Shown here: positions 35,504 to 47,016 of the stretch, one piece after another
Layout: every line of letters starts with the position of its first letter
How positions within the stretch are numbered: the first letter of the stretch is position 1
Notes under the pieces: generated by a model
Database searches by the model: none
What the model was told of the DNA's origin: nothing
Seen by the model: only the letters and a program-made list of their open reading frames with translations
Position numbers and translations under genes: made by a program
Source of the DNA: Nitrospira sp.
GTDB taxonomy: Bacteria; Nitrospirota; Nitrospiria; Nitrospirales; Nitrospiraceae
Length of the DNA: 60,512 nucleotides
Reading direction: 5' to 3'
Assembly (NCBI GenBank): GCA_030444405.1
Contig: JARFPM010000006.1
Span: 1 to 60,512 of the forward strand

Positions 35504-38497
35504 TTACGCCGTCAATCGCCTGTAAATTCCAGGCAACTTCGTCGGAAGGGCATCGACGTGGTCTATGACGCAGTACTGTACATCGGCGTACATGCGGCGT
35601 AGATAATTCTCAGCTTCCCGATCGATCGTGACGCAAAAAGTCTCGACTCCCCGTTGTCTTGCCTCCCGGAGTGCCGCCTTCGTATCTTCCAACGAGTATT
35701 CGTCCTTGTACTGGTCGTCCAATGGTCTTCCGTCGCTCAACAGCACGAGGATGCGATTCTTCGCTTCCCGCGCCAGCAGCTTCGCCGTGGCGTGCCGGAT
35801 GGCCGCACCGTCGCGATTCTGATGACGAGGAGCCAAGCCACCAAGCCGATGAGCCGTCGCCGCCCCAAGTCGATCGTCAAAGTCTTTGATCGTGAGAAAC
35901 TCGATCCTCGCTCGTCCTTGGCCCGAGTAGGCATAGAGTCCATACTGATCGCCGAGGGCATCCAGCGCTTCGCAGAGCAGCACCAGACCTTCCTTCTCAA
36001 TGTCGATCACCCGTCGACCGGTTCCGAGGTCTCGGCTTGTTGATCCACTGATATCAATGAGGAAGGCCACCGCCACGTCGCGCTCTCGTTTTTCCCGCCG
36101 GATGTACAGCCGATCATCGCCTTCCATACCTGCCCGCTGTTCCACTGTTCGCCGGACAACGGCATCGAGATCCACATCTTCGCCGTCGGATTGCCCCGCG
36201 ACGCGGCGGAAGGCTGGTGGACGCAAGCCTTCAAAAAACCGGCGCAGCGACCTGACGGTACTTTGATGAGAGACCAACGTCTCCGTGACGAAGTCGTCGG
36301 ACCCTGGGTCCGCTGGTCGTTCTACCACGCGACACCAATTCATCCGGTAATCCTCAATCCGATAGTCCCACTCAGCGTAGAGGGTGGCTCGCCCGTCATG
36401 AGTCGTGAGCTGCCGAATCGGTTGGGTTTCCACCTCAAGTGCGAGGCACTCTTCCACGATGGACGGCAATGAACGCCCCTCGCTCAACATATCGCTTCCG
36501 GAATGTTGCTCACCGCTCCGGACATTCTCCCTCGTTCGCCCGTCGGATTGTGCCGGAAGCCCATGGTGCTGGTCGAATTGTTCCTGACCCCACGTGATGA
36601 ACTCCGGATTCATCGAGCCACGATAGACCAAATTGGTCAGTGCTCGATATTGGTCACCCGGTTGTTCCGGTTTCGCCTGTTCCGTTTCTGTATCTTTCGG
36701 CTCCTCGCGCCATCCTGCACGTATCATCTCGCCACGAGCCGCCAGCAGTTCTTCCAATCGAACATAGACCTGATCAACCACCCGAACTGTCTCCTCCGCT
36801 GTAGCCGCGGTTTTAAGAATGGAATGGCACAGGCTCCAAAGGATCGCGACTTCTTCTTTGACTGCCTTAGGAACGGCAGAATCCGTCGATTCACCGGTTG
36901 TGAGTCTCAAGAGGCAGTCGAGGACCAACTCCTGTATCGTCAAACCCTGAGCCGGATCACGTGGGGTGATGGATTCCGCCGCCAATCGAGCAAGGTCGCA
37001 CCGGAGTCCTGGATATTCAGTTTGCAGCAAAAATTCGATACGAGCATCTTCTAGCACGGTCCACAGGTCCCGCACCAGCGCGGGGTTCGGATACATCTGG
37101 AAAAGGCCGACCAGCGTCTCCGGTCTCGCTTCATTGGATCGACCATACCGGCGTCGTACGGTTTCGACCAAGTCGGTGAGAGCTACGAGCCGGAGACGGT
37201 AGGTACCGAATTCCACATGTCCAGCTTCATGCGCCGCCATCACGAGATAAAGACGCTCGTTTTCCGCGGCCGTCGGATACCGACGGAGAAGCGCCGGCAA
37301 CGAAATGGTTCTCCCGTCGCCGCTGACTGTCGCGCGGGCTGGGGAAGTCACCGAATCAGGAAGCGCCGTGACGGCGATGTCGGTTCCACAGAGTCCCTGG
37401 ACGAACAGTTTCACTCGTCGCGCGACCTGCCGAAATGGCACCCCGCTCAAGGCTTGTTCGACCGAAGCCAGTGCTTTCCTCGACTCCATTGAAAAGTAAG
37501 CCCGCGCTCCGTCTGGGCTGTAGGCCGCTACTTCCATCCCCGCCTTGAACCAGTTTTCAAACCGCGTGAGCGCTTCGGGTCCATTTCCAATGAGTTCGAC
37601 GAGTTCGGGGGCACGACGCAGGTATTCAAGTGTCACGTCAGCGTGCTTCTCGGCAAGCAAAGCACCGTACTGCAACAGCCGGATCCGCCATTCCATTGAC
37701 GGCAACATTCCCAAGCGGTCGGGTGACTCTGCGAGCCACGTGATACTGGATTCAGGGGAATGTTCGGCCAACTGGAGACACAGCGATACGACCTTTTCCC
37801 GAACGGGAGGGTCTTGGATATTTCCAAGAATCGACGGGCTGGTCCTGAGAAACTCCATGGTCGCCACATAGTCCGGCTTCCCGAGGCTATTCGGCACAAT
37901 CAATTTCATGCCCACCGTGGCCCAGCTACGCACACTCTCCCAAGGCAGCACGGGGGCCAAGTTGGAGATTTGTCGGATGAACTCAAGCCCCACGACCACA
38001 TTGACTTGGGTCAGTTGAATGCCGATATCGAGCCAGGGTCGCAACTGTGTGGCAGGAACATCGGACAGAATCTGCGGGGCGTGCCTGATGTATTCGAGCG
38101 CAACATTGGGATCTTGTTCGGCAATTTCCAGACCGATTGTTAAGACTTCCGTGCGCGCTTCGACTGGTTCGATCAGTCCGAGGACCAATGGACTATCTTT
38201 GAAATACTTAAGCGCGCATGCCCCGGAGGACTGTGCCAGTGCCACTCCGAGATCGAGCCACAAAATGATATGCGAGAGGCCGGCCCGTCGGTCAAGCTCA
38301 GGCAATGCCGCCATCGCTGAGCCGGCTGCTTTTTCCGACAACTCTTGGAGTTCGTCCAGTAAGGTCAGTACCCGTGCCTCGGCATCCGGTTTGCCGGTGG
38401 CTTGCGCCAAACCAACCACCAATGTCTCTGCGACCGCCGGACTCAACTCGGAGACCAGCCGTTGCAGCAAGATCTGTCGACTCGACATGTCCGTCAT
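35504..38497 (-). CDS. Large VWA-domain protein, NorD/CbbO-like
   Basis: 997 residues. The first 330 are helical repeats of about 35 residues (LEFIRQISNLAPVLPWESVRSWATVG, ALEYIRHAPQILSDVP), HEAT-like. Near 420 is AAHEAGHVEFGTY with an HExxH pattern. The last 200 form a von Willebrand A domain with MIDAS motif FLIDISGSTS, a later Thr/Ser region and LVLLSDGRPLDD. NorD and CbbO pair with MoxR-type AAA ATPases (NorQ/CbbQ) to activate metalloenzymes such as nitric oxide reductase or RuBisCO. No such ATPase is in the window, so the client is unknown. Confidence 0.85.
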   Translation of the reverse strand: MTDMSSRQILLQRLVSELSPAVAETLVVGLAQATGKPDAEARVLTLLDELQELSEKAAGSAMAALPELDRRAGLSHIILWLDLGVALAQSSGACALKYFKDSPLVLGLIEPVEARTEVLTIGLEIAEQDPNVALEYIRHAPQILSDVPATQLRPWLDIGIQLTQVNVVVGLEFIRQISNLAPVLPWESVRSWATVGMKLIVPNSLGKPDYVATMEFLRTSPSILGNIQDPPVREKVVSLCLQLAEHSPESSITWLAESPDRLGMLPSMEWRIRLLQYGALLAEKHADVTLEYLRRAPELVELIGNGPEALTRFENWFKAGMEVAAYSPDGARAYFSMESRKALASVEQALSGVPFRQVARRVKLFVQGLCGTDIAVTALPDSVTSPARATVSGDGRTISLPALLRRYPTAAENERLYLVMAAHEAGHVEFGTYRLRLVALTDLVETVRRRYGRSNEARPETLVGLFQMYPNPALVRDLWTVLEDARIEFLLQTEYPGLRCDLARLAAESITPRDPAQGLTIQELVLDCLLRLTTGESTDSAVPKAVKEEVAILWSLCHSILKTAATAEETVRVVDQVYVRLEELLAARGEMIRAGWREEPKDTETEQAKPEQPGDQYRALTNLVYRGSMNPEFITWGQEQFDQHHGLPAQSDGRTRENVRSGEQHSGSDMLSEGRSLPSIVEECLALEVETQPIRQLTTHDGRATLYAEWDYRIEDYRMNWCRVVERPADPGSDDFVTETLVSHQSTVRSLRRFFEGLRPPAFRRVAGQSDGEDVDLDAVVRRTVEQRAGMEGDDRLYIRREKRERDVAVAFLIDISGSTSRDLGTGRRVIDIEKEGLVLLCEALDALGDQYGLYAYSGQGRARIEFLTIKDFDDRLGAATAHRLGGLAPRHQNRDGAAIRHATAKLLAREAKNRILVLLSDGRPLDDQYKDEYSLEDTKAALREARQRGVETFCVTIDREAENYLRRMYADVQYCVIDHVDALPTKLPGIYRRLTA

Positions 38498-38596: not shown

Positions 38597-39037
38597 ATGG
38601 CTGAACCGACGCAGGAAAGCCTCGATAAGATCCGGAAGTTCGTACAGGGGTTTGCGGAGAAAAGCGGAACCGCGATGCATCCCAATACTGCTGTGACGGA
38701 GGCGGTGGTCAAGGGATTAGCGTCCCATATCGACGAACTCGGGAAACCGCTCTGCCCTTGCAACTTTTACAAGGACAAGGAAGCTGAAGCCAAGCTCCGG
38801 CGCTGGATCTGCGCGTGCGACGAAATGCAAATCTACAAATACTGTCATTGTCTTCTTTTTGTTCGCGAGGATGGGATGCCAATTACGGAATATTTGCCGG
38901 ACGGTCACGAAGGTCGCGACGTGTATGGTCTGGTCACCGATCCAACGCCTGACAAAGGTCGCGCTCTCAAACACAAGGCCGTCCCATCTCCAACCGTGTC
39001 CGAAGAGTCCGCCTCGGCGTCGGCTTCCTCGACATGA
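38597..39037 (+). CDS. Ferredoxin:thioredoxin reductase catalytic-subunit-like protein
   Basis: 146 residues from ATG 38597, with GGAGGAGA upstream. The cysteine pattern CPC-X16-CAC-X8-CHC matches the catalytic beta chain (usually CPC-X16-CPC-X8-CHC), which holds a 4Fe-4S cluster beside a redox disulfide and reduces thioredoxin with ferredoxin electrons. The last 30 residues are a Ser/Ala/Pro-rich tail. No variable subunit gene is seen; many non-phototrophs lack it. Stop overlaps the next start (ATGA). Confidence 0.88.
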   Translation: MAEPTQESLDKIRKFVQGFAEKSGTAMHPNTAVTEAVVKGLASHIDELGKPLCPCNFYKDKEAEAKLRRWICACDEMQIYKYCHCLLFVREDGMPITEYLPDGHEGRDVYGLVTDPTPDKGRALKHKAVPSPTVSEESASASASST

Positions 39038-39651
39038 CGTGGCGTGACAGGCAACTCAGACGCTGGCTCGCAGGTTTGTTGCTGATCAGCGGCTTCCACG
39101 TAGCGCTGGCACACGCGGTGGGATCGGGCACGTCGAACCCTCCGATCTTCAACGATAAAGAACTCTTCGCCTATAGGGCGAAAGGTCGGGGAAGTGCGGC
39201 TGGACAAGTCTTCCTGCGCGCATCCTCTGGAAAAGCCGTGACTCAGGCGGGGGCCTCGATCTACCTGATTCCGATGGTTTCCTATACTCGCGCTTGGTTC
39301 GATAAGAATGTGCGAGAGAACTCCTGCACATCAAAAGGTGGGACATCGTCCCCAGAGAACTCCGTGACTCAGGGGTCGCCTGTGGAATGCCTTCGTGAGG
39401 TCATGGCCCAACTGCTGACCGATAAGAGACTGATTCCCTATCTCCGTACGACGAGGGCCAATCCAACCGGTCATTTTTGGTTCACGAAAGTTCCTCCTGG
39501 CCGCTATTATATTGTCACCCTCCTTGAGGGGAGCGGTGGGGCCCACCAGGACGAACGGGCGATGGGAATAGCCTGGCTGACGATCGAGCTCGATGCTGAC
39601 GAAAAAGCAACCAACCTGGTGGTCACCGATTGTAAGAGCATCCTCTGTTGA
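39034..39651 (+). CDS. Hypothetical exported protein, 205 aa
   Basis: Start overlaps the previous stop (ATGA), so translation is coupled. The N-terminus is a signal peptide (RRWLAGLLLISGFHVALAHA). The mature protein contains SGKAVTQAGASIYLIPMVSYT and GHFWFTKVPPGRYYIVTLLE, which resembles a carboxypeptidase-regulatory/transthyretin-like beta fold, with a probable disulfide pair CTSKGG and VECLRE. Role unknown; coupling to the thioredoxin-reductase-like gene could hint at redox handling, but this is inference. Confidence 0.72.
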   Translation: MTWRDRQLRRWLAGLLLISGFHVALAHAVGSGTSNPPIFNDKELFAYRAKGRGSAAGQVFLRASSGKAVTQAGASIYLIPMVSYTRAWFDKNVRENSCTSKGGTSSPENSVTQGSPVECLREVMAQLLTDKRLIPYLRTTRANPTGHFWFTKVPPGRYYIVTLLEGSGGAHQDERAMGIAWLTIELDADEKATNLVVTDCKSILC

Positions 39652-39702: not shown

Positions 39703-40386
39703 ATGAGAATTCTTCTCGTTGAAGATGACGCGGATCTGGCTCAATTCATCAGAAAAGGATTGAAAGAAGAGCAGTATGTGGTGGACGTGGCCGTCGACGG
39801 CGAAGCAGGCTTAGCGTTGGCTCTGGACAATTCCTATGACCTGATGATCCTCGACATCATGTTACCCAAGCTTGACGGTTTGACGCTCTGCCGCCGCATT
39901 CGTGACAAGAAGATCATGACGCCGGTGCTCTTATTAACGGCGCGCAACACAGTGGAAACCAAGGTCTCCGGCTTCGATACGGGCGCGGATCAATTTTTAG
40001 CAAAGCCGTTCGCTTTTGTGGAACTGCTCGCCCGGGTCCGAGCCCTCCTGCGGCGGGGCAGCTCCCAGCAAATTGCTCGTCTTCAAGCGGTCGACCTACG
40101 GTTAGACCCGGCTTCTCACCGTGTCTGGCGCGCAGGACAGGAAATCTCCCTGACGAATAAGGAGTATGCCTTGCTTGAGTTCCTCCTGCGGAACAAGAAT
40201 CGCGTGCTCACCCGAACCGCAATCATTGAACACGTGTGGGATATCAGTTATGACCCCATGACGAATATCGTCGACGCCCACATTCGAGCCCTCCGTGCGA
40301 AGATCGACCGGGACTTTTCGCCGCCCTTAATCGCCACGGTGCGCGGCGCAGGGTATATGCTCGAAGACCCGGACGATTCTGCATGA
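39703..40386 (+). CDS. OmpR/PhoB-family response regulator
   Basis: 227 residues. Receiver domain with acidic pair VEDDADLAQF, phospho-acceptor Asp in LMILDIMLPKLDG, Thr in LLLTARN and Lys in FLAKPFAF. The C-terminal winged helix shows LTNKEYALLEFLLRNKNRVLTRTAIIEHVW and VDAHIRALRAKID. It resembles the CusR/CopR metal-responsive group in its end ATVRGAGYMLED. It overlaps the kinase gene (ATGA). Tandem 11-nt half-sites upstream of the two peptides downstream are candidates for its binding sites. Confidence 0.94.
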   Translation: MRILLVEDDADLAQFIRKGLKEEQYVVDVAVDGEAGLALALDNSYDLMILDIMLPKLDGLTLCRRIRDKKIMTPVLLLTARNTVETKVSGFDTGADQFLAKPFAFVELLARVRALLRRGSSQQIARLQAVDLRLDPASHRVWRAGQEISLTNKEYALLEFLLRNKNRVLTRTAIIEHVWDISYDPMTNIVDAHIRALRAKIDRDFSPPLIATVRGAGYMLEDPDDSA

Positions 40387-41819
40387 AATCCCTGCGCAGC
40401 TTGATCAGTTGGTCCGCCTTTGTCTTGATGGCGGGGCTTCTCGTGTTCTCTGCCCTGGTATATGCCGCCAGCGAGATCTTGTTGCAGCGTTTTGTGGATG
40501 GTCGCCTCCTCGTGTTGGCGGAAACCCTCGCCGAGTTTGTGGAACGGCATCCCGAGTTCTTTGAACAGAGCGGCCAGGATACTGCCCCGACCACCGAATT
40601 GACCCAAAGCACCACGGAACAGCACGTCCTGCCAGACGTGACCCACGCCCTTCGTGTCTTTTCAGCCGACGGCTCGCTCTTGTGGAGAAGTTCTCACGCA
40701 ACTGTTGAAGGGCCGCTCTCCCCCCACGTGCTCGAACAGGTTCGCCTCAAGAACATCCTGTTCGAGACACTCGACGCTCCCGATGGTACGCCTGCGCGGC
40801 TCCTGTTTCTCTGGCTCACAGGCAAGGGTCATGTGCGGTACATCTTGCAGGCGGAAACCTCCTTGCGCCACTATCAGGAAACTCTCCATGGCCTTGTGTT
40901 TCTGCTCGCCCTTGGATCGGGGGCCACTCTTATCCTGGCCTGGGTCGGCAGCCTCTGGCTGGCAAAGAAAGTGATGGCCCCCATTGAGGCCTTGTGTACG
41001 GGCGCCGAAACCATGTCGGAAGCTGACCTTGGGAAGCGACTGGAGATGGATTCACCCTATCGAGAATTTCGGCGACTCACCCAGGCGGTCAATTCCGTAT
41101 TGGATCAGTTCCAACGAAGTAGCGAGGTCCAACGGAACTTCTGCGAGATCGCCGCTCATGAGATGAAGACCCCCCTGACCATCCTGCAAGGCAACCTAGA
41201 GGTCGCGCTCATGAAAGCGAGGACCGCCGAAGAATATCACGAGGTGCTTCTCAACAATCTCCACCAAGTGGAGCGCCTGATCGCCCTGACGCGCCCATTA
41301 TTGACTCTCGCGAAGTTCACCAGTAGCAAGCCGCCGGTCAATCTTGTCCCGCTCGCCCTGGAACCTCTGATTCAAGAGATCGTGGATGAGCTGATTCTCT
41401 TGGCGGATGACCGCCGGATTACCATGCGGTTTGAATCCCAGCCGGTTCCGTTTGTGCTCGGCGATGCCCAGTGGCTCAAACAGGCATTGATCAATTTGCT
41501 CGACAATGCGCTGCGTTACACTCCATCCGGTGGAGCTGTCTCCATCCGCCTGCAGGCCGTAGGTCAAGAAGTGGTGGTGTCGGTCGAGGACACAGGCCAC
41601 GGAATCGAGCCGGAAAATATTCCCCATCTGTTCGAACGATTCTACCGCACCGATTGGGCCCGAGCGAAAGACTCCGCCGGTACCGGGCTTGGGCTTCCCA
41701 TCGTGAAGGAAATCATGGATGCCCACGGCGGGAACATTTATGTCACAAGCGAAGTCAACAAAGGCTCCGTCTTCACCCTGCGCTTACCAGCCCTTGCCCA
41801 GCAGACAGTCCCTGCCTAA
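40383..41819 (+). CDS. Membrane sensor histidine kinase (HAMP, HisKA, HATPase)
   Basis: 478 residues. Two membrane helices (LISWSAFVLMAGLLVFSALVY and LVFLLALGSGATLILAWVG) flank a periplasmic sensor domain of about 140 residues of no named family. HAMP follows, then the H box EIAAHEMKTPLTILQG, N box QALINLLDNALRYTP and G boxes VEDTGHGIEPE and GTGLGLPIVKEI. It phosphorylates the response regulator encoded just upstream. Architecture matches metal- or envelope-stress kinases; the signal is unknown. Confidence 0.94.
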   Translation: MKSLRSLISWSAFVLMAGLLVFSALVYAASEILLQRFVDGRLLVLAETLAEFVERHPEFFEQSGQDTAPTTELTQSTTEQHVLPDVTHALRVFSADGSLLWRSSHATVEGPLSPHVLEQVRLKNILFETLDAPDGTPARLLFLWLTGKGHVRYILQAETSLRHYQETLHGLVFLLALGSGATLILAWVGSLWLAKKVMAPIEALCTGAETMSEADLGKRLEMDSPYREFRRLTQAVNSVLDQFQRSSEVQRNFCEIAAHEMKTPLTILQGNLEVALMKARTAEEYHEVLLNNLHQVERLIALTRPLLTLAKFTSSKPPVNLVPLALEPLIQEIVDELILLADDRRITMRFESQPVPFVLGDAQWLKQALINLLDNALRYTPSGGAVSIRLQAVGQEVVVSVEDTGHGIEPENIPHLFERFYRTDWARAKDSAGTGLGLPIVKEIMDAHGGNIYVTSEVNKGSVFTLRLPALAQQTVPA

Positions 41820-41947: not shown

Positions 41948-42001
41948 ATGAAGGACTCTTCATGACCCCCTCATGGAGGCTTCATCTTGAAGGCGTATAG
42001 A
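41948..42001 (+). promoter_or_regulatory. Operator and promoter of small membrane peptide 1
   Basis: ATGAAG-GACT-CTTCAT palindrome at 41948-41963. TCAT half-sites start at 41960, 41971 and 41982, an 11-nt period, then a 10-nt gap, then TATAGA 41996-42001. Direct repeats at 11 nt ending about 10 nt before the -10 match promoters activated by OmpR/PhoB-type regulators. Confidence 0.6.
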
Positions 42002-42033
42002 GATAGAAAAGTAAAAGGAGGTGAACAACTATT

Positions 42034-42114
42034 ATGATTTCCTTTATCGAAGTGTTCTTATTAGCCGCCATATTTGGGGTGTTGTACGCAATGTTGCAGC
42101 TCGCCAGCAGGTGA
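42034..42114 (+). CDS. Small single-span membrane peptide 1, 26 aa
   Basis: ATG 42034, preceded by GGAGGTG at 42017-42023, a near-perfect ribosome-binding site with a 10-nt gap. The product begins MISFIEVFLLAAIFGVLYAM and ends LQLASR: one hydrophobic helix with a small polar end, so an inner-membrane miniprotein. It aligns without gaps over 26 positions to the peptide at 42629 (8 identities, the rest mostly hydrophobic in both; FG and Y conserved). It lies 214 nt after the histidine kinase. Known miniproteins of this size act as subunits or modulators of membrane complexes (KdpF, CydX); the role here is unknown. Confidence 0.68.
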   Translation: MISFIEVFLLAAIFGVLYAMLQLASR

Positions 42115-42539
42115 CCCGACCCGGTCGATGCCGTGGAGAAACCAGCTGTAGACGGGGGCCGGGCAGAGAGGGTCATGCTTGCCAGTCAAGTACGCACTTG
42201 TGACCCCCTGCTCGCCCCCGAGAGAGAGTGAGCAACTTCCGCATGGTCTCTGAGTTGTGCAGCAATCCGGGCTGACCACAGTCTGCACCATCGTGGGCGC
42301 CTGGTTGATATTGCATTGGGCTTGCGCGCTTTGACAGCGACCCCGGGCCCGAGATTTCATGGAGCCTGGCGCCGCCCACATGATTGCGCAAGTCCTTCCC
42401 AGCATGAGAAGTATCGCTTTCTAGACAATTCCCTTCTTGTTTCGCTGGCTTCTTCTTCGATGATTCACCCTGATATCTCTCACCCGACACCCGATGACTA
42501 CATGTGGCAAATCAACAGGATAGGTGGCCAAGGTCATTG
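42115..42539. other. Gap between the two peptide genes
   Basis: No gene is supported. Minus-strand frames here lack ribosome-binding sites and have Cys/Arg/Gly-rich composition unlike the neighbours. Possibly the trace of the duplication that separated the peptides. Confidence 0.45.
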
Positions 42540-42597
42540 AATTATGAAGATTTCTTCATAATTTCATCATCGACCATTCATATTCGAGCAGTATGCC
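42540..42597 (+). promoter_or_regulatory. Operator and promoter of small membrane peptide 2
   Basis: A 24-bp perfect palindrome with 11-bp arms spans 42540-42563, containing ATGAAG-N4-CTTCAT. TCAT half-sites start at 42556, 42567 and 42578 (11-nt period), then a 10-nt gap, then TATGCC 42592-42597. The layout copies that of peptide 1. Confidence 0.6.
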
Positions 42598-42628
42598 TTT
42601 TAGAGATCAAAGGAGGTGAAGATCTATG

Positions 42629-42709
42629 ATGACGATATTCTTTGCGTTGCTCGCACTGACCGCTGTTTTTGGACTGGTGTATAAGGCGATATACCTTGAC
42701 CGTGAATAG
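42629..42709 (+). CDS. Small single-span membrane peptide 2, 26 aa
   Basis: Two ATGs in a row (42626 and 42629). I choose 42629: it makes the gene 81 nt like its paralog and places GGAGGTG (42612-42618) exactly 10 nt upstream, as in peptide 1. The product begins MTIFFALLALTAVFGLVYKA and ends IYLDRE: one membrane helix and a short charged tail. FG-x-x-Y is shared with peptide 1. The promoter copy upstream suggests both peptides answer to the same regulator. The 235 nt that follow show nothing further. Confidence 0.68.
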   Translation: MTIFFALLALTAVFGLVYKAIYLDRE

Positions 42710-42945: not shown

Positions 42946-43419
42946 CTACTTCCGCTCTTTGATCGCTCGCTCAACTTCTCTACCAGCTTCCCGAGCTTTG
43001 ATTGATTCTCGACGATCATGCTGCTTCTTTCCTTTGGCTAATCCCAGTTCGACCTTGGCCTGGCCTCGCTCCGAAAAATAGATTCGTAGCGGGATCAGCG
43101 TGAGACCCTTCTGCTGGGTTTTCCCCAGGAGCTTGTTGATCTCCTTTCGATGAAGGAGCAGTTTGCGCGTCCTGATCGGATCGTGGTTCATAATGTTGCC
43201 GTGGCTATAGGGGCTGATGTGGCAGTGATGAAGAAAGACCTCTCCCTCCTTCACACTGGCATAGCTATCCTGTAAATTCACCCGCCGATCACGGAGCGAT
43301 TTTACCTCGGTCCCCTTGAGGACAATCCCGGCCTCGAATTTTTCTTCGATAAAATAATCGTGGTAGGCTTTCCGATTGGTGACCACGACCTTCCGTTGAT
43401 CTTCCGTTTCTTTAGCCAT
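42946..43419 (-). CDS. smpB: SsrA-binding protein SmpB
   Basis: 157 residues. [28 protein letters not shown] opens the OB fold, followed by [45 protein letters not shown] and the basic tail [26 protein letters not shown]. It binds tmRNA and brings it to stalled ribosomes. No tmRNA gene was recognised in this window. Divergent from the DciA-like gene. Confidence 0.97.
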
Positions 43420-43471
43420 GATCCGACACCGACAGCTTGATCTATTTCTCCGCTACCGCCTATCATGCCAT

Positions 43472-43975
43472 ATGATCGGTCCAGGTACACTCGATTCCTT
43501 CGGCAGCATCCTTTCGGGTCTTTCCAAGCGGCTCGGTCTCGAATCAAGACTGGTGGAACTTCGTTTGCAGCATCGATGGCGCGACATCGTGGGCGAGCCC
43601 ATGGCTTCCCACACCTGGCCGGCCCAGATTCGCTTCAAGAAACTCTACCTAACCGTCAGAAATTCCGTCTGGCTGCAACAGCTGACGTTCCTCAAACCGG
43701 CGCTCTTGGCGAAGCTGCAGGCAGAGTCAGGAATGGAGTCCGTAACGGACATTGCGTGTCGCGTCGGAGAGATCCCCGGTGAGACCGAGGTTTCCCCCGC
43801 AAGTCTCCCCACCGACATCGGATCGACTCGGTCAGAGACATCGTGGGCCGAGCTGGTCTCGTATACCGCCATGATCCAAGATCCTTCCATCCGCGAGCGG
43901 CTTAGAGAGGTGATATCGAGATACCCTGCTCAGCGTCCTCCTCGACCGGCAAAGGGTCCGTCACGAGCCCCTTGA
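43472..43975 (+). CDS. DUF721/DciA-like protein
   Basis: 167 residues from ATG 43472; an ATG at 43418 in the same frame is possible but has no better ribosome-binding site. The DUF721 core is seen: LRLQHRWRDIVGEPMASHTWPAQIRFKKLYLTVRNSVWLQQLTFLKPALLAKL. Proteins with this domain include DciA, the helicase loader used where DnaC/DnaI are absent. Its position near gyrA-gyrB-dnaN-dnaA fits a replication role. It overlaps the convergent hypothetical gene by 74 nt. Confidence 0.8.
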   Translation: MIGPGTLDSFGSILSGLSKRLGLESRLVELRLQHRWRDIVGEPMASHTWPAQIRFKKLYLTVRNSVWLQQLTFLKPALLAKLQAESGMESVTDIACRVGEIPGETEVSPASLPTDIGSTRSETSWAELVSYTAMIQDPSIRERLREVISRYPAQRPPRPAKGPSRAP

Positions 43976-44513
43976 AGAGGATCCGTGTGTCACTGGCGAC
44001 CCGGCCATTCTTGGGGATAGGGCCTATTCCTCCTTCTTCATCCTGGTCTTGCAATCGATAGTATCCTCGCATGGATCGTTCATAGTCCTTGATGACCGCC
44101 GCATCCCCGGCCAGATACTTTGCCAGCAGCTCTGGATCGGTCCATCCGTGGTTGTCGAAGACATAGATCACGATCTGTCTGTACCGACCTCCTGGATCCT
44201 CCGGAGTCGTCGGGTAGATCTTCATAGGGCCGAAATCGCGCGTCTGATGCCCGACCTTTCGAAAACGCTTCAGCAGCTTTTCGATCTGATCATCTTGGGT
44301 CCCTGAAGGGACATGTGCGGCAACAACATGGCCTGATTGAGAGCCGACGGTATAGGGAGGAATCGATCGATCGGGGCGACTAAGATACATACCCCCCCAG
44401 ATCAAGGCGAAGGACCCCACAAAGACACCAAGCGCGAATTTGACGACGAAATCGAGTGGCTTCTTGGTCTTCGGACCGTCGGGAGGCATGGAAGAGGACA
44501 GCTGCTGATGCAT
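43902..44513 (-). CDS. Hypothetical single-pass membrane protein, 203 aa
   Basis: A cytoplasmic start of 23 residues is followed by one membrane helix (FVVKFALGVFVGSFALIWGGMYLS) and an extra-cytoplasmic domain of about 150 residues (DDQIEKLLKRFRKVGHQTRDFG, YRQIVIYVFDNHGWTDPELL). No family is recognised. It lies 25 nt downstream of gyrA on the same strand. The 3' end overlaps the DciA-like gene, which is unusual but both frames look protein-like. Confidence 0.72.
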   Translation of the reverse strand: MHQQLSSSMPPDGPKTKKPLDFVVKFALGVFVGSFALIWGGMYLSRPDRSIPPYTVGSQSGHVVAAHVPSGTQDDQIEKLLKRFRKVGHQTRDFGPMKIYPTTPEDPGGRYRQIVIYVFDNHGWTDPELLAKYLAGDAAVIKDYERSMRGYYRLQDQDEEGGIGPIPKNGRVASDTRILFKGLVTDPLPVEEDAEQGISISPL

Positions 44514-44538
44514 TGAACGATTACGTGGCTCGGGCGGG

Positions 44539-47016
44539 TCAGGCTTCGGGGATGTCTTCCGAACCCGTGTCCTCCCGTTCTACCACTTCCGCGAGTCTCG
44601 CGACGCCTACGACTCGGTCTCCTTCACCGTCGAGGTCAAGAATGCGGACACCTTGGGTATTCCGACCAATCTCGCGGATATCGTCTACCTTACAGCGAAG
44701 CACTTTACCCTGCGCAGCCATCAACATGATCTGATCGCCATCTCGTACTTGAAGGAATCCCACGGCTAGACCGTTTCGCTCCGTTGTCTTGACGCTGATA
44801 ATACCTTTGCCGCCACGACCCTGAATGCGGTATTCGCCCACGGGTGTTCGTTTGCCGTAGCCGCCTTCCGTGACGGTCAAAATGGATGTCGTGGAATCAG
44901 GGGTGATCGTTTCCATGCCGATAACTTCGTTCCCCTCTTCGAGCGTGATCCCTTTCACCCCATACGCCGTCCGCCCCATGGACCTCACCTCTTCTTCTTT
45001 GAATCGAATGGTGATGCCCTGCCGTGTCCCGAGAAGAATTTCCCGCTGTCCATCAGTCAGTTGAACGCCGATCAGCTTATCGCCGCTCTCAAGTCCCAAA
45101 GCGATGATCCCGCCTTGCCGTGGATTGCTGAACGCGGACAGTTCCGTTTTTTTGATGATGCCCTTTTTGGTACCCATCACGATATACCGGTCGTCCCTGA
45201 ACTCTTTCACCGGCAATGTGGCCGTGACCCTTTCATTACTCGACAGCGCGAGCAGGTTGACGAGAGCCTTGCCCTTTGCTGCACGGCTGGCCTCAGGAAT
45301 TTCATGGACCTTTAACCAATACACCTTGCCGGCGTCCGTGAAAAAGAGCAGTGAATCATGGGTGGAGGCCGTGAAGAGATTCACGACGAAATCTTCCTCC
45401 TTGATACCCATGCCGATCTTGCCTTTTCCTCCTCGTCGCTGGGCACGATAGAGCGACACGGCATTTCGTTTGATGTATCCAGCGTGAGAGATCGTAACAA
45501 TCACTTCTTCTGCTGCAATCAGATCTTCCAGGCTGATCTCCGCCTCTTCCTTGACGATCTGCGTCCGCCGTTCGTCCTTGTAGGCCTCACGAATTTCGGT
45601 CAGCTCGTCCTTAATGATGGTCCTGACCAACGCCTCGCTCGCGAGCACGGATTTCAGGTATTCGATCTGCTTGAGCACTTCTTGGTATTCTTCGACGAGC
45701 TTGGTACGTTCCAGCTGCGTTAAGCGCTGGAGCCGCATGTCGAGGATCGCATTGGCTTGGATCTCGGTAAGGCCGAACTGACGCATCAAACCGGCCCGCG
45801 CTTCATCGGGTGATTGAGACCGTCTGATGAGCGTGATCACGGCATCAAGATTGTCGAGCGCGATCTTGAGTCCTTCGAGGATATGCGCTCGCTCCTCTGC
45901 TTTTCTGAGCTCGAAGGCCGTCCGTCGCACCACGACTTCCCGTCGATGCTCAAGGAAATAATGGAGGATCTGTTTGAGGTTCAGAATCTCCGGGCGATTG
46001 TTCACGAGCGCCAACATGATGACGCCGAAGGTGGTTTCCAGCGGTGTGTGCTTGTAGAGATTGTTCAACACCACCAACGGGATTTCACCTCGCTTGAGCT
46101 CGATGACCACCCGGACACCCTCGCGATCCGAGGACTCATCTCGCAAGTCGGAGATGCCTTTGATCCGGTCTTCCTGAACCAACTCGGCAATCTTCTTGAT
46201 CAATGACACCTTGTTGACTTGATACGGAATCTCCGTCACGATGAGCCGTTCGCGCTCGGTGCGTTCATCGGTTTCTACAACGACTTTTGCCCGCAACTTC
46301 AAGAGACCCCGACCGGTCTCGTAGGCCTCCTTGATACCGCTCATGCCGTAGATGAACCCGGCCGTTGGAAAATCAGGTCCCGGGATTTTCTTCATCAACT
46401 GGGCAATTGTGACGTCTGGACTCTCTAAGAGCAGGAGCAATCCATCGATGATCTCGGCAATGTTGTGCGTCGGGATGTTCGTGGCATAGCCGACCGCGAT
46501 GCCGCCAGCCCCGTTAATGAGGAGATTCGGCACCCTGGTTGGTAGAACCAATGGTTCCTGCCTTGATTCGTCATAGTTGGGAGCGAAGTCGACCGTCTCC
46601 TTGTCGATGTCGGCCAGCATTTCCTCAGCGAGTTTGGTCATGCGCGCTTCGGTGTAGCGCATCGCAGCCGCTGAATCGCCGTCCATCGATCCATAGTTGC
46701 CCTGGCCGTCGACGAGGGGATAACGCATGTTGAAGTCCTGCGCCATCCGGACGAGGGTGTCGTAAATGGCCGTATCGCCATGGGGATGATAATTGCCCAT
46801 AATCTCGCCCACGATCTTGGCGGACTTGCGGTAGGCCCGATTGGAGGCGAGACCCATTTCGTTCATGCCGAACAGGATGCGGCGATGGACCGGCTTGAGC
46901 CCGTCGCGGACGTCAGGCAGCGCCCGTCCTACGATGACGCTCATCGCATAATCGAGGTAAGACGATTTCATTTCGTCTTCTATCGCGATGTGGCCTAGAC
47001 GTTCATCAGGGGGCAT
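44539..47016 (-). CDS. gyrA: DNA gyrase subunit A
   Basis: 825 residues, usual length. Catalytic Tyr121 in AAAMRYTEARM; the quinolone-resistance region reads HPHGDTAIYDTLVR, with Thr82 at the position of E. coli Ser83 and Asp86 kept. The C-terminal beta-pinwheel repeats are present, with the GyrA box as RRGGKGKIG (canonical QRRGGKG). With GyrB it introduces negative supercoils. Third in dnaA-dnaN-gyrB-gyrA from the origin. Confidence 0.98.
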   Translation of the reverse strand: MPPDERLGHIAIEDEMKSSYLDYAMSVIVGRALPDVRDGLKPVHRRILFGMNEMGLASNRAYRKSAKIVGEIMGNYHPHGDTAIYDTLVRMAQDFNMRYPLVDGQGNYGSMDGDSAAAMRYTEARMTKLAEEMLADIDKETVDFAPNYDESRQEPLVLPTRVPNLLINGAGGIAVGYATNIPTHNIAEIIDGLLLLLESPDVTIAQLMKKIPGPDFPTAGFIYGMSGIKEAYETGRGLLKLRAKVVVETDERTERERLIVTEIPYQVNKVSLIKKIAELVQEDRIKGISDLRDESSDREGVRVVIELKRGEIPLVVLNNLYKHTPLETTFGVIMLALVNNRPEILNLKQILHYFLEHRREVVVRRTAFELRKAEERAHILEGLKIALDNLDAVITLIRRSQSPDEARAGLMRQFGLTEIQANAILDMRLQRLTQLERTKLVEEYQEVLKQIEYLKSVLASEALVRTIIKDELTEIREAYKDERRTQIVKEEAEISLEDLIAAEEVIVTISHAGYIKRNAVSLYRAQRRGGKGKIGMGIKEEDFVVNLFTASTHDSLLFFTDAGKVYWLKVHEIPEASRAAKGKALVNLLALSSNERVTATLPVKEFRDDRYIVMGTKKGIIKKTELSAFSNPRQGGIIALGLESGDKLIGVQLTDGQREILLGTRQGITIRFKEEEVRSMGRTAYGVKGITLEEGNEVIGMETITPDSTTSILTVTEGGYGKRTPVGEYRIQGRGGKGIISVKTTERNGLAVGFLQVRDGDQIMLMAAQGKVLRCKVDDIREIGRNTQGVRILDLDGEGDRVVGVARLAEVVEREDTGSEDIPEA

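Follow-up and report, generated by a model that had tools for sequence, protein, structure and literature searches.

A predicted two-component regulon with small single-helix membrane peptides in comammox Nitrospira

RESULTS

A regulator–kinase pair stands beside two short peptide frames with repeated promoters

We analyzed a 60.5-kb stretch of DNA, here called the window, from a comammox Nitrospira, a bacterium that oxidises ammonia completely to nitrate, with a genome of 3.46 Mb. Orthologues up to 90% identical in named Nitrospira genomes place the organism in this genus, and since the genome contains AmoC it is of the comammox type. All four of its AmoC matches are partial, and most of them lie at the ends of contigs, as would be expected if a repeated amoC had been broken in assembly.

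At the locus, genes for a response regulator and a membrane sensor kinase are followed by two units of the same layout, in which an array of half-sites precedes a ribosome-binding site and a short single-transmembrane frame (peptides A and B, Table 1). On recomputation, the positions given in the first-pass annotation for the palindromes, the TCAT triples, the GGAGGTG sites and the −10-like hexamers were all correct. The flanking genes, which are those of a NorD-like VWA protein and a 205-aa protein on one side and an SmpB-DUF721-GyrA block on the other, keep this order in many relatives.

Table 1. Features of the locus and of the two further array sites in the same genome
Feature	Coordinates	Strand	Remarks
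NorD-like VWA protein	35504-38497		
205-aa protein	39034-39651		
OmpR-family response regulator	39703..40386	+	227 aa; receiver (Pfam PF00072) and Trans_reg_C (PF00486)
Membrane sensor histidine kinase	40383..41819	+	478 aa; HAMP, HisKA, HATPase_c (domain matches)
Array promoter 1	41948..42001	+	palindrome ATGAAG-N4-CTTCAT 41948-41963; profile R1 E 3.7e-14
Array promoter 1, half-sites	TTCAT 41959-41963, TCAT 41971-41974, TTCAT 41981-41985	+	
Array promoter 1, −10-like TATAGA	41996-42001	+	
Ribosome-binding site GGAGGTG, peptide A	42017..42023	+	90% identity across relatives
Peptide A	42034..42114	+	26 aa, single-transmembrane frame, MISFIEVFLLAAIFGVLYAMLQLASR
Array promoter 2	42544..42597	+	palindrome 42544-42559; profile R1 E 2.6e-13
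Array promoter 2, half-sites	TTCAT 42555-42559, TCAT 42567-42570, TTCAT 42577-42581	+	
Array promoter 2, −10-like TATGCC	42592-42597	+	
Ribosome-binding site GGAGGTG, peptide B	42612..42618	+	
Peptide B	42626..42709	+	27 aa, single-transmembrane, MMTIFFALLALTAVFGLVYKAIYLDRE; start 42626 preferred over 42629
SmpB-DUF721-GyrA block	42946-47016		
Array, PmoD-like 220-aa gene, start of amoC running off contig end	C55:1-961 (L156)		
Array before 106-aa protein and DEAD-box helicase	C1:30696-30747 (L208)		

The arrays have OmpR/PhoB-type promoter anatomy

In both window arrays the third half-site is separated from the −10-like hexamer by exactly 10 nt, and the distance from the end of the palindrome to the ATG is 70 nt for peptide A and 69 nt for peptide B (to the ATG at 42629). 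The triple TCAT-N7-TCAT-N7-TCAT occurs twice in the 60.5-kb window, against 0.01 occurrences expected from a first-order Markov background. We scanned the whole genome with sequence patterns and with a sequence profile, R1; the pattern TTCAY-N7-TCAY-N7-TCAT matched only the two window sites in 3.46 Mb, and its reversed control matched none.

To define the promoter more widely, 58 array sites were gathered by the half-site pattern, with neither the ATGAAG nor the −10 used in the selection, and they share the consensus ATGAAG-N5-TTCAY-N7-TCAT-N6-TTCAT-N10-TAtnnT. Even though the sites were selected on half-sites only, the ATGAAG on the upstream side and, downstream, the TA of the −10 are kept, the T standing at the fixed distance in 56 of the 58 sites and the A in 52. 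The 11-nt half-site steps, present in both window arrays and throughout the 58 sites, are those of OmpR/PhoB-type promoters, and relatives match the copy in the window at 0.79–0.80 identity from the array through to the −10. The arrays share the word TTCAT, used as a direct repeat, with the reported CopR site of Synechocystis, TTCATN4-5TTCAT (PMC4182526), but differ from it in having N6 (an 11-nt step) rather than N4-5, and three half-sites plus an inverted one.

The peptide frames are conserved as coding sequences

Identity of relatives to the copy in the window is 0.83 within the peptide A frame versus 0.48 past its stop, with no indels and with codon positions ranked 2>1>3; for peptide B it is 0.86 versus 0.49, again without indels. 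Pooled pN/pS values are 0.385 for A (15 copies) and 0.374 for B (7 copies). At the sequence level, this is the pattern of peptides that are translated and under selection. The first-pass annotation had named stops or indels in relatives, and arrays missing where peptides persist, as findings that would speak against it; neither refuted it, and across the genus both frames and arrays are conserved. In one groundwater MAG (L259), an internal deletion at the second array cuts the peptide B frame and leaves the promoter intact.

Peptide B was first read from the ATG at 42629, as (M)MTIFFALLALTAVFGLVYKAIYLDRE. Since this codon is ACG in several relatives, where only the upstream start is available, translation probably begins at the ATG at 42626, which gives 27 residues and a spacing of 7 nt between the Shine–Dalgarno sequence and the ATG. 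The equal length and the exact 10-nt spacing that had been claimed for both peptides thus hold for A and probably fail for B. That the two are paralogues is plausible, as they fall within a wider family with the core [FLV]-G/A-x-x-Y, although they are only about 31% identical over 26 residues.

Neither peptide matched an entry in Pfam, NCBIfam or the PDB, and comparison with PHROG returned weak matches to families without a function. KdpF, CydX-like and other named small-subunit families were ruled out on the lack of any Pfam, NCBIfam or PDB match; in the case of Pfam KdpF, neither the window peptides nor 19 family members matched at E<=1, at a length of 26 residues where the power of a profile is low. 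The intergenic region contained no RNA element or tmRNA that we could find, and had no Rfam match.

Very short hydrophobic frames that stand behind a regulated promoter and recur as duplicates at several loci could also be membrane-acting stress peptides of the TisB/Ibs kind, which the regulator would induce to slow the cell under stress. We consider this improbable given the conservation pattern, which ends at the stop codon, and given that the frames have strong ribosome sites, no conserved antisense or leader RNA and no Rfam match, and are co-regulated with metabolic or envelope genes.

The regulator and kinase are nearest to Cus/Cop-type systems

The regulator is 84–93% identical among its genus orthologues. 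Its nearest NCBIfam models are TIGR01387 (cztR_silR_copR), the CusR-type PRK09836 and HprR, and it scores 260 bits against TIGR01387, below the curated cut-off of 279.2; the kinase scores 238.6 bits against TIGR01386 (cztS_silS_copS), below the cut-off of 292.55. CusRS/CopRS/CzcRS is the nearest named subfamily for both proteins, yet both fall under its curated cut-offs. Among solved chains, the CusS core (7zp0, E 5.6e-40) is nearest to the kinase by sequence. In a predicted model, the periplasmic sensor of the kinase (about residues 30–170) is PDC/Cache-like (pLDDT 81); the best fold matches of this model are WalK, PhoQ and Cache sensors, including CitA, and the CusS sensor is absent among the fold matches listed. 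Within the kinase, 17 genus sequences all have His88 and His163, which are not invariant in the sister family. Because the scores lie under the Cus/Cop cut-offs and the sensor fold is generic, copper sensing was dropped as a firm claim. We saw no efflux genes at the array sites.

Other array sites precede a PmoD-type gene with an orphan amoC and a helicase unit

With profile R1, just four sites in the genome of the window score strongly: those of peptide A and peptide B, one on contig C55 and one on contig C1. The site on C55 is 71 nt upstream of the gene for a 220-aa PmoD-type protein, with amoC directly after it. At the C1 site, the 106-aa protein is conserved and belongs to no known family, and the unit of array, 106-aa gene and helicase gene is repeated in many relatives. 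A closed genome (G039) likewise has four sites, which precede peptide A by the regulator–kinase pair, PmoD-amoC, the 106-aa/helicase unit and another 27-aa helix peptide. In larger genomes, arrays also precede additional peptide loci, a 78-aa protein, genes for Slp-type lipoproteins (PF03843) and, directly, amoC. The array-controlled protein of 78–79 aa (MANIIAASMVCFPYVIVGLGQAII...), which lies downstream of the kinase in L031, L032, L039, L236 and others, has no known family and did not turn up in the genome of the window.

The amoC genes linked to arrays stand alone, outside amoCAB. The idea that arrays control the main amoCAB operon was dropped, as the three operons examined (G018, G019 and G021) have no array, and for this reason orphan amoC is favored as the target; an array next to amoC as a general rule was also rejected, since many orphan amoC copies lack one. 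Comammox genomes have at least one non-operonal amoC, and the orphan AmoC of ammonia-oxidising bacteria is stress-linked, AmoC3 of Nitrosomonas europaea being tied to a sigma-factor stress response (PMC6311188). AmoC3 and the array amoC genes are alike in being single amoC genes outside amoCAB with a regulated promoter of their own. The difference is that the array amoC has a two-component-type array promoter and goes with PmoD and transmembrane peptides.

The 220-aa protein aligns with PmoD 6CPD (E 5.9e-8) and has the two cysteines, signal peptide and C-terminal helix of a PmoD/AmoE homologue. The copper ligand motif of PmoD/AmoE is Cx7MxHxnC or Cx8MHxnC (PMC6189053), whereas the 220-aa protein carries Cx7LxHx14C, in which the ligand Met is replaced by Leu. 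It also differs from PmoD/AmoD/AmoE in an N-terminal extension, its first ~25 residues, that resembles peptide B; for this resemblance, the shuffle control for the best partner came out at 0 of 500 in all eight cases. The alignment reads as a peptide fused to PmoD, or as a shared origin of the two.

The same resemblance could be read in the opposite direction, with the peptide frames as functionless remnants of a promoter-plus-N-terminus cassette duplicated from PmoD or Slp genes. Array-driven PmoD N-termini, and more weakly that of one Slp gene, do resemble peptide B, including the Shine–Dalgarno region. A remnant of this kind would not be expected to keep a fixed length, its stop and freedom from indels in many species, nor a pN/pS of about 0.38, a codon-position bias and conservation that ends sharply at the stop. 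On this pattern we regard the vestigial origin as improbable.

Arrays co-occur with the kinase across the genus

We surveyed 79 genus genomes at an R1 site threshold of E<=1e-6. A close kinase orthologue is present in 59 of them. Array sites occur in 59/59 genomes with the kinase versus 5/20 without it (p=2.9e-12, ignoring shared ancestry), which supports the linkage of the arrays to the OmpR/kinase pair that had been proposed from the window. AmoC shows a similar distribution, with matches in 50 of the 59 genomes with the kinase versus 4 of the 20 without (p=2.5e-7, again ignoring shared ancestry). Four of the genomes with arrays (G004, G007, G058 and G076) have no close orthologue of the pair, only distant regulators or none, and their assemblies are fragmented, so that missing contigs or another regulator may be involved. 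A further genome with arrays, G085, has a regulator that is 67% identical.

The unit downstream of the kinase, which consists of an array, a GGAGGTG-like site and a 25–32 aa single-helix frame, recurs in relatives; an array with such a peptide follows the kinase at 41 of the 63 named Nitrospira loci, and the linkage of regulator, kinase, array and peptide persists at loci with different flanking genes (L268, L270). This persistence, in most loci and across changes of synteny, is also what one would expect under the main rival to our interpretation. According to this rival, the peptides act on the neighboring kinase as MgrB does on PhoQ: produced once the regulator is active, they would insert beside the transmembrane helices of the kinase and damp or sharpen its signal, and the orphan amoC would merely share the regulon. 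MgrB, which belongs to the PhoP regulon and acts as an inhibitor of PhoQ, is a membrane protein of 47 aa (PMC8404706); like the peptides, it is a short single-pass protein behind a two-component-type promoter. Feedback is also favored by a canonical nitrite oxidiser (L295) with a 49% identical kinase, which has an array and an unrelated-looking 36-aa transmembrane peptide.

Several observations fit feedback less well. The peptides are shorter than MgrB and exist in several diverged copies per genome; many genomes have up to five peptide loci, most of them far from the kinase, which exceeds the need for one feedback peptide. The PmoD of the amoC unit has a segment resembling peptide B fused to it, and several genomes keep the pair and the array without a peptide. 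We thus hold feedback on the kinase to be possible rather than probable. Some peptide loci adjoin unrelated genes, and at one of them (L107:283-816, G002:C144) a gene for a cupredoxin-like secreted protein lies divergently upstream of the array-peptide unit.

DISCUSSION

The system described here is a putative two-component regulon in which small membrane peptides form one class of members and not the whole. Our preferred explanation, to which as a whole we assign a probability of roughly 0.55, is that the regulator–kinase pair drives a small regulon that occurs mostly in comammox Nitrospira, with the locus as its regulatory hub and the peptides as accessory helices. The kinase would sense an envelope signal and phosphorylate the OmpR-type regulator. 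From promoter anatomy and co-occurrence, the regulator is predicted to bind the ATGAAG/TTCAT inverted pair and two further TTCAT half-sites spaced in 11-nt steps, in a stretch that lies upstream of the −35 and overlaps it, and to activate transcription from the −10 that lies 10 nt downstream. In the window it would drive peptides A (26 residues) and B (27 residues), each with a single transmembrane segment, and elsewhere in the genome the PmoD-type protein with the orphan amoC as well as the 106-aa protein with the DEAD-box helicase. The predicted link from the pair to the miniproteins, which the first-pass annotation had put forward, is well supported by conservation and co-occurrence, though not proven.

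What the peptides would do is a weaker part of this explanation. We infer that they serve as small accessory helices for membrane machinery made under the same signal, and in this way could tune a membrane complex, as had been suggested from the window; the best candidate machinery would be an ammonia monooxygenase (AMO) carrying the orphan AmoC and PmoD. That the peptides assist such a form of AMO is thus proposed less firmly than the regulatory link. The specific version, in which the peptides serve a stress-related or alternative AMO with orphan AmoC and PmoD, either as subunits of a single helix or as factors in its assembly, and one dedicated two-component system switches all of these on together, is tentative and, in our estimation, possible rather than probable.

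To our knowledge, the control of ammonia oxidation in comammox bacteria is poorly understood, and these bacteria do not lend themselves readily to manipulation. A promoter that can be recognised by its sequence, and that ties the regulator pair to orphan amoC, PmoD and unannotated peptides, provides a gene list that can be checked in existing transcriptomes and proteomes, for example those of copper, starvation or pH stress, and suggests that the ammonia-oxidising enzyme has a dedicated control circuit of a kind not described before. In the literature searched, mostly outside subscription journals, we found no description of the promoter, the regulon or the peptides. If the AMO assignment is true, the field would gain a protein family below the usual size limit of annotation, where subunits have been missed before: the extra membrane subunits AmoX, AmoY and AmoZ of archaeal AMO were missed until they were directly sought (PMC10030591). 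These occur in Archaea only, and our peptides, with one helix and 25–32 residues, are likened to them by description.

A link to AMO is not obligatory for the system, as the array and transmembrane peptide of the nitrite oxidiser L295 show. In the sister family, among genomes without AmoC matches, arrays precede lipoprotein and other genes, so that the array and regulator system may predate its employment at amoC and in comammox bacteria. At two loci of this family (g6; L113 and L116), the gene that follows the array encodes a lipoprotein.
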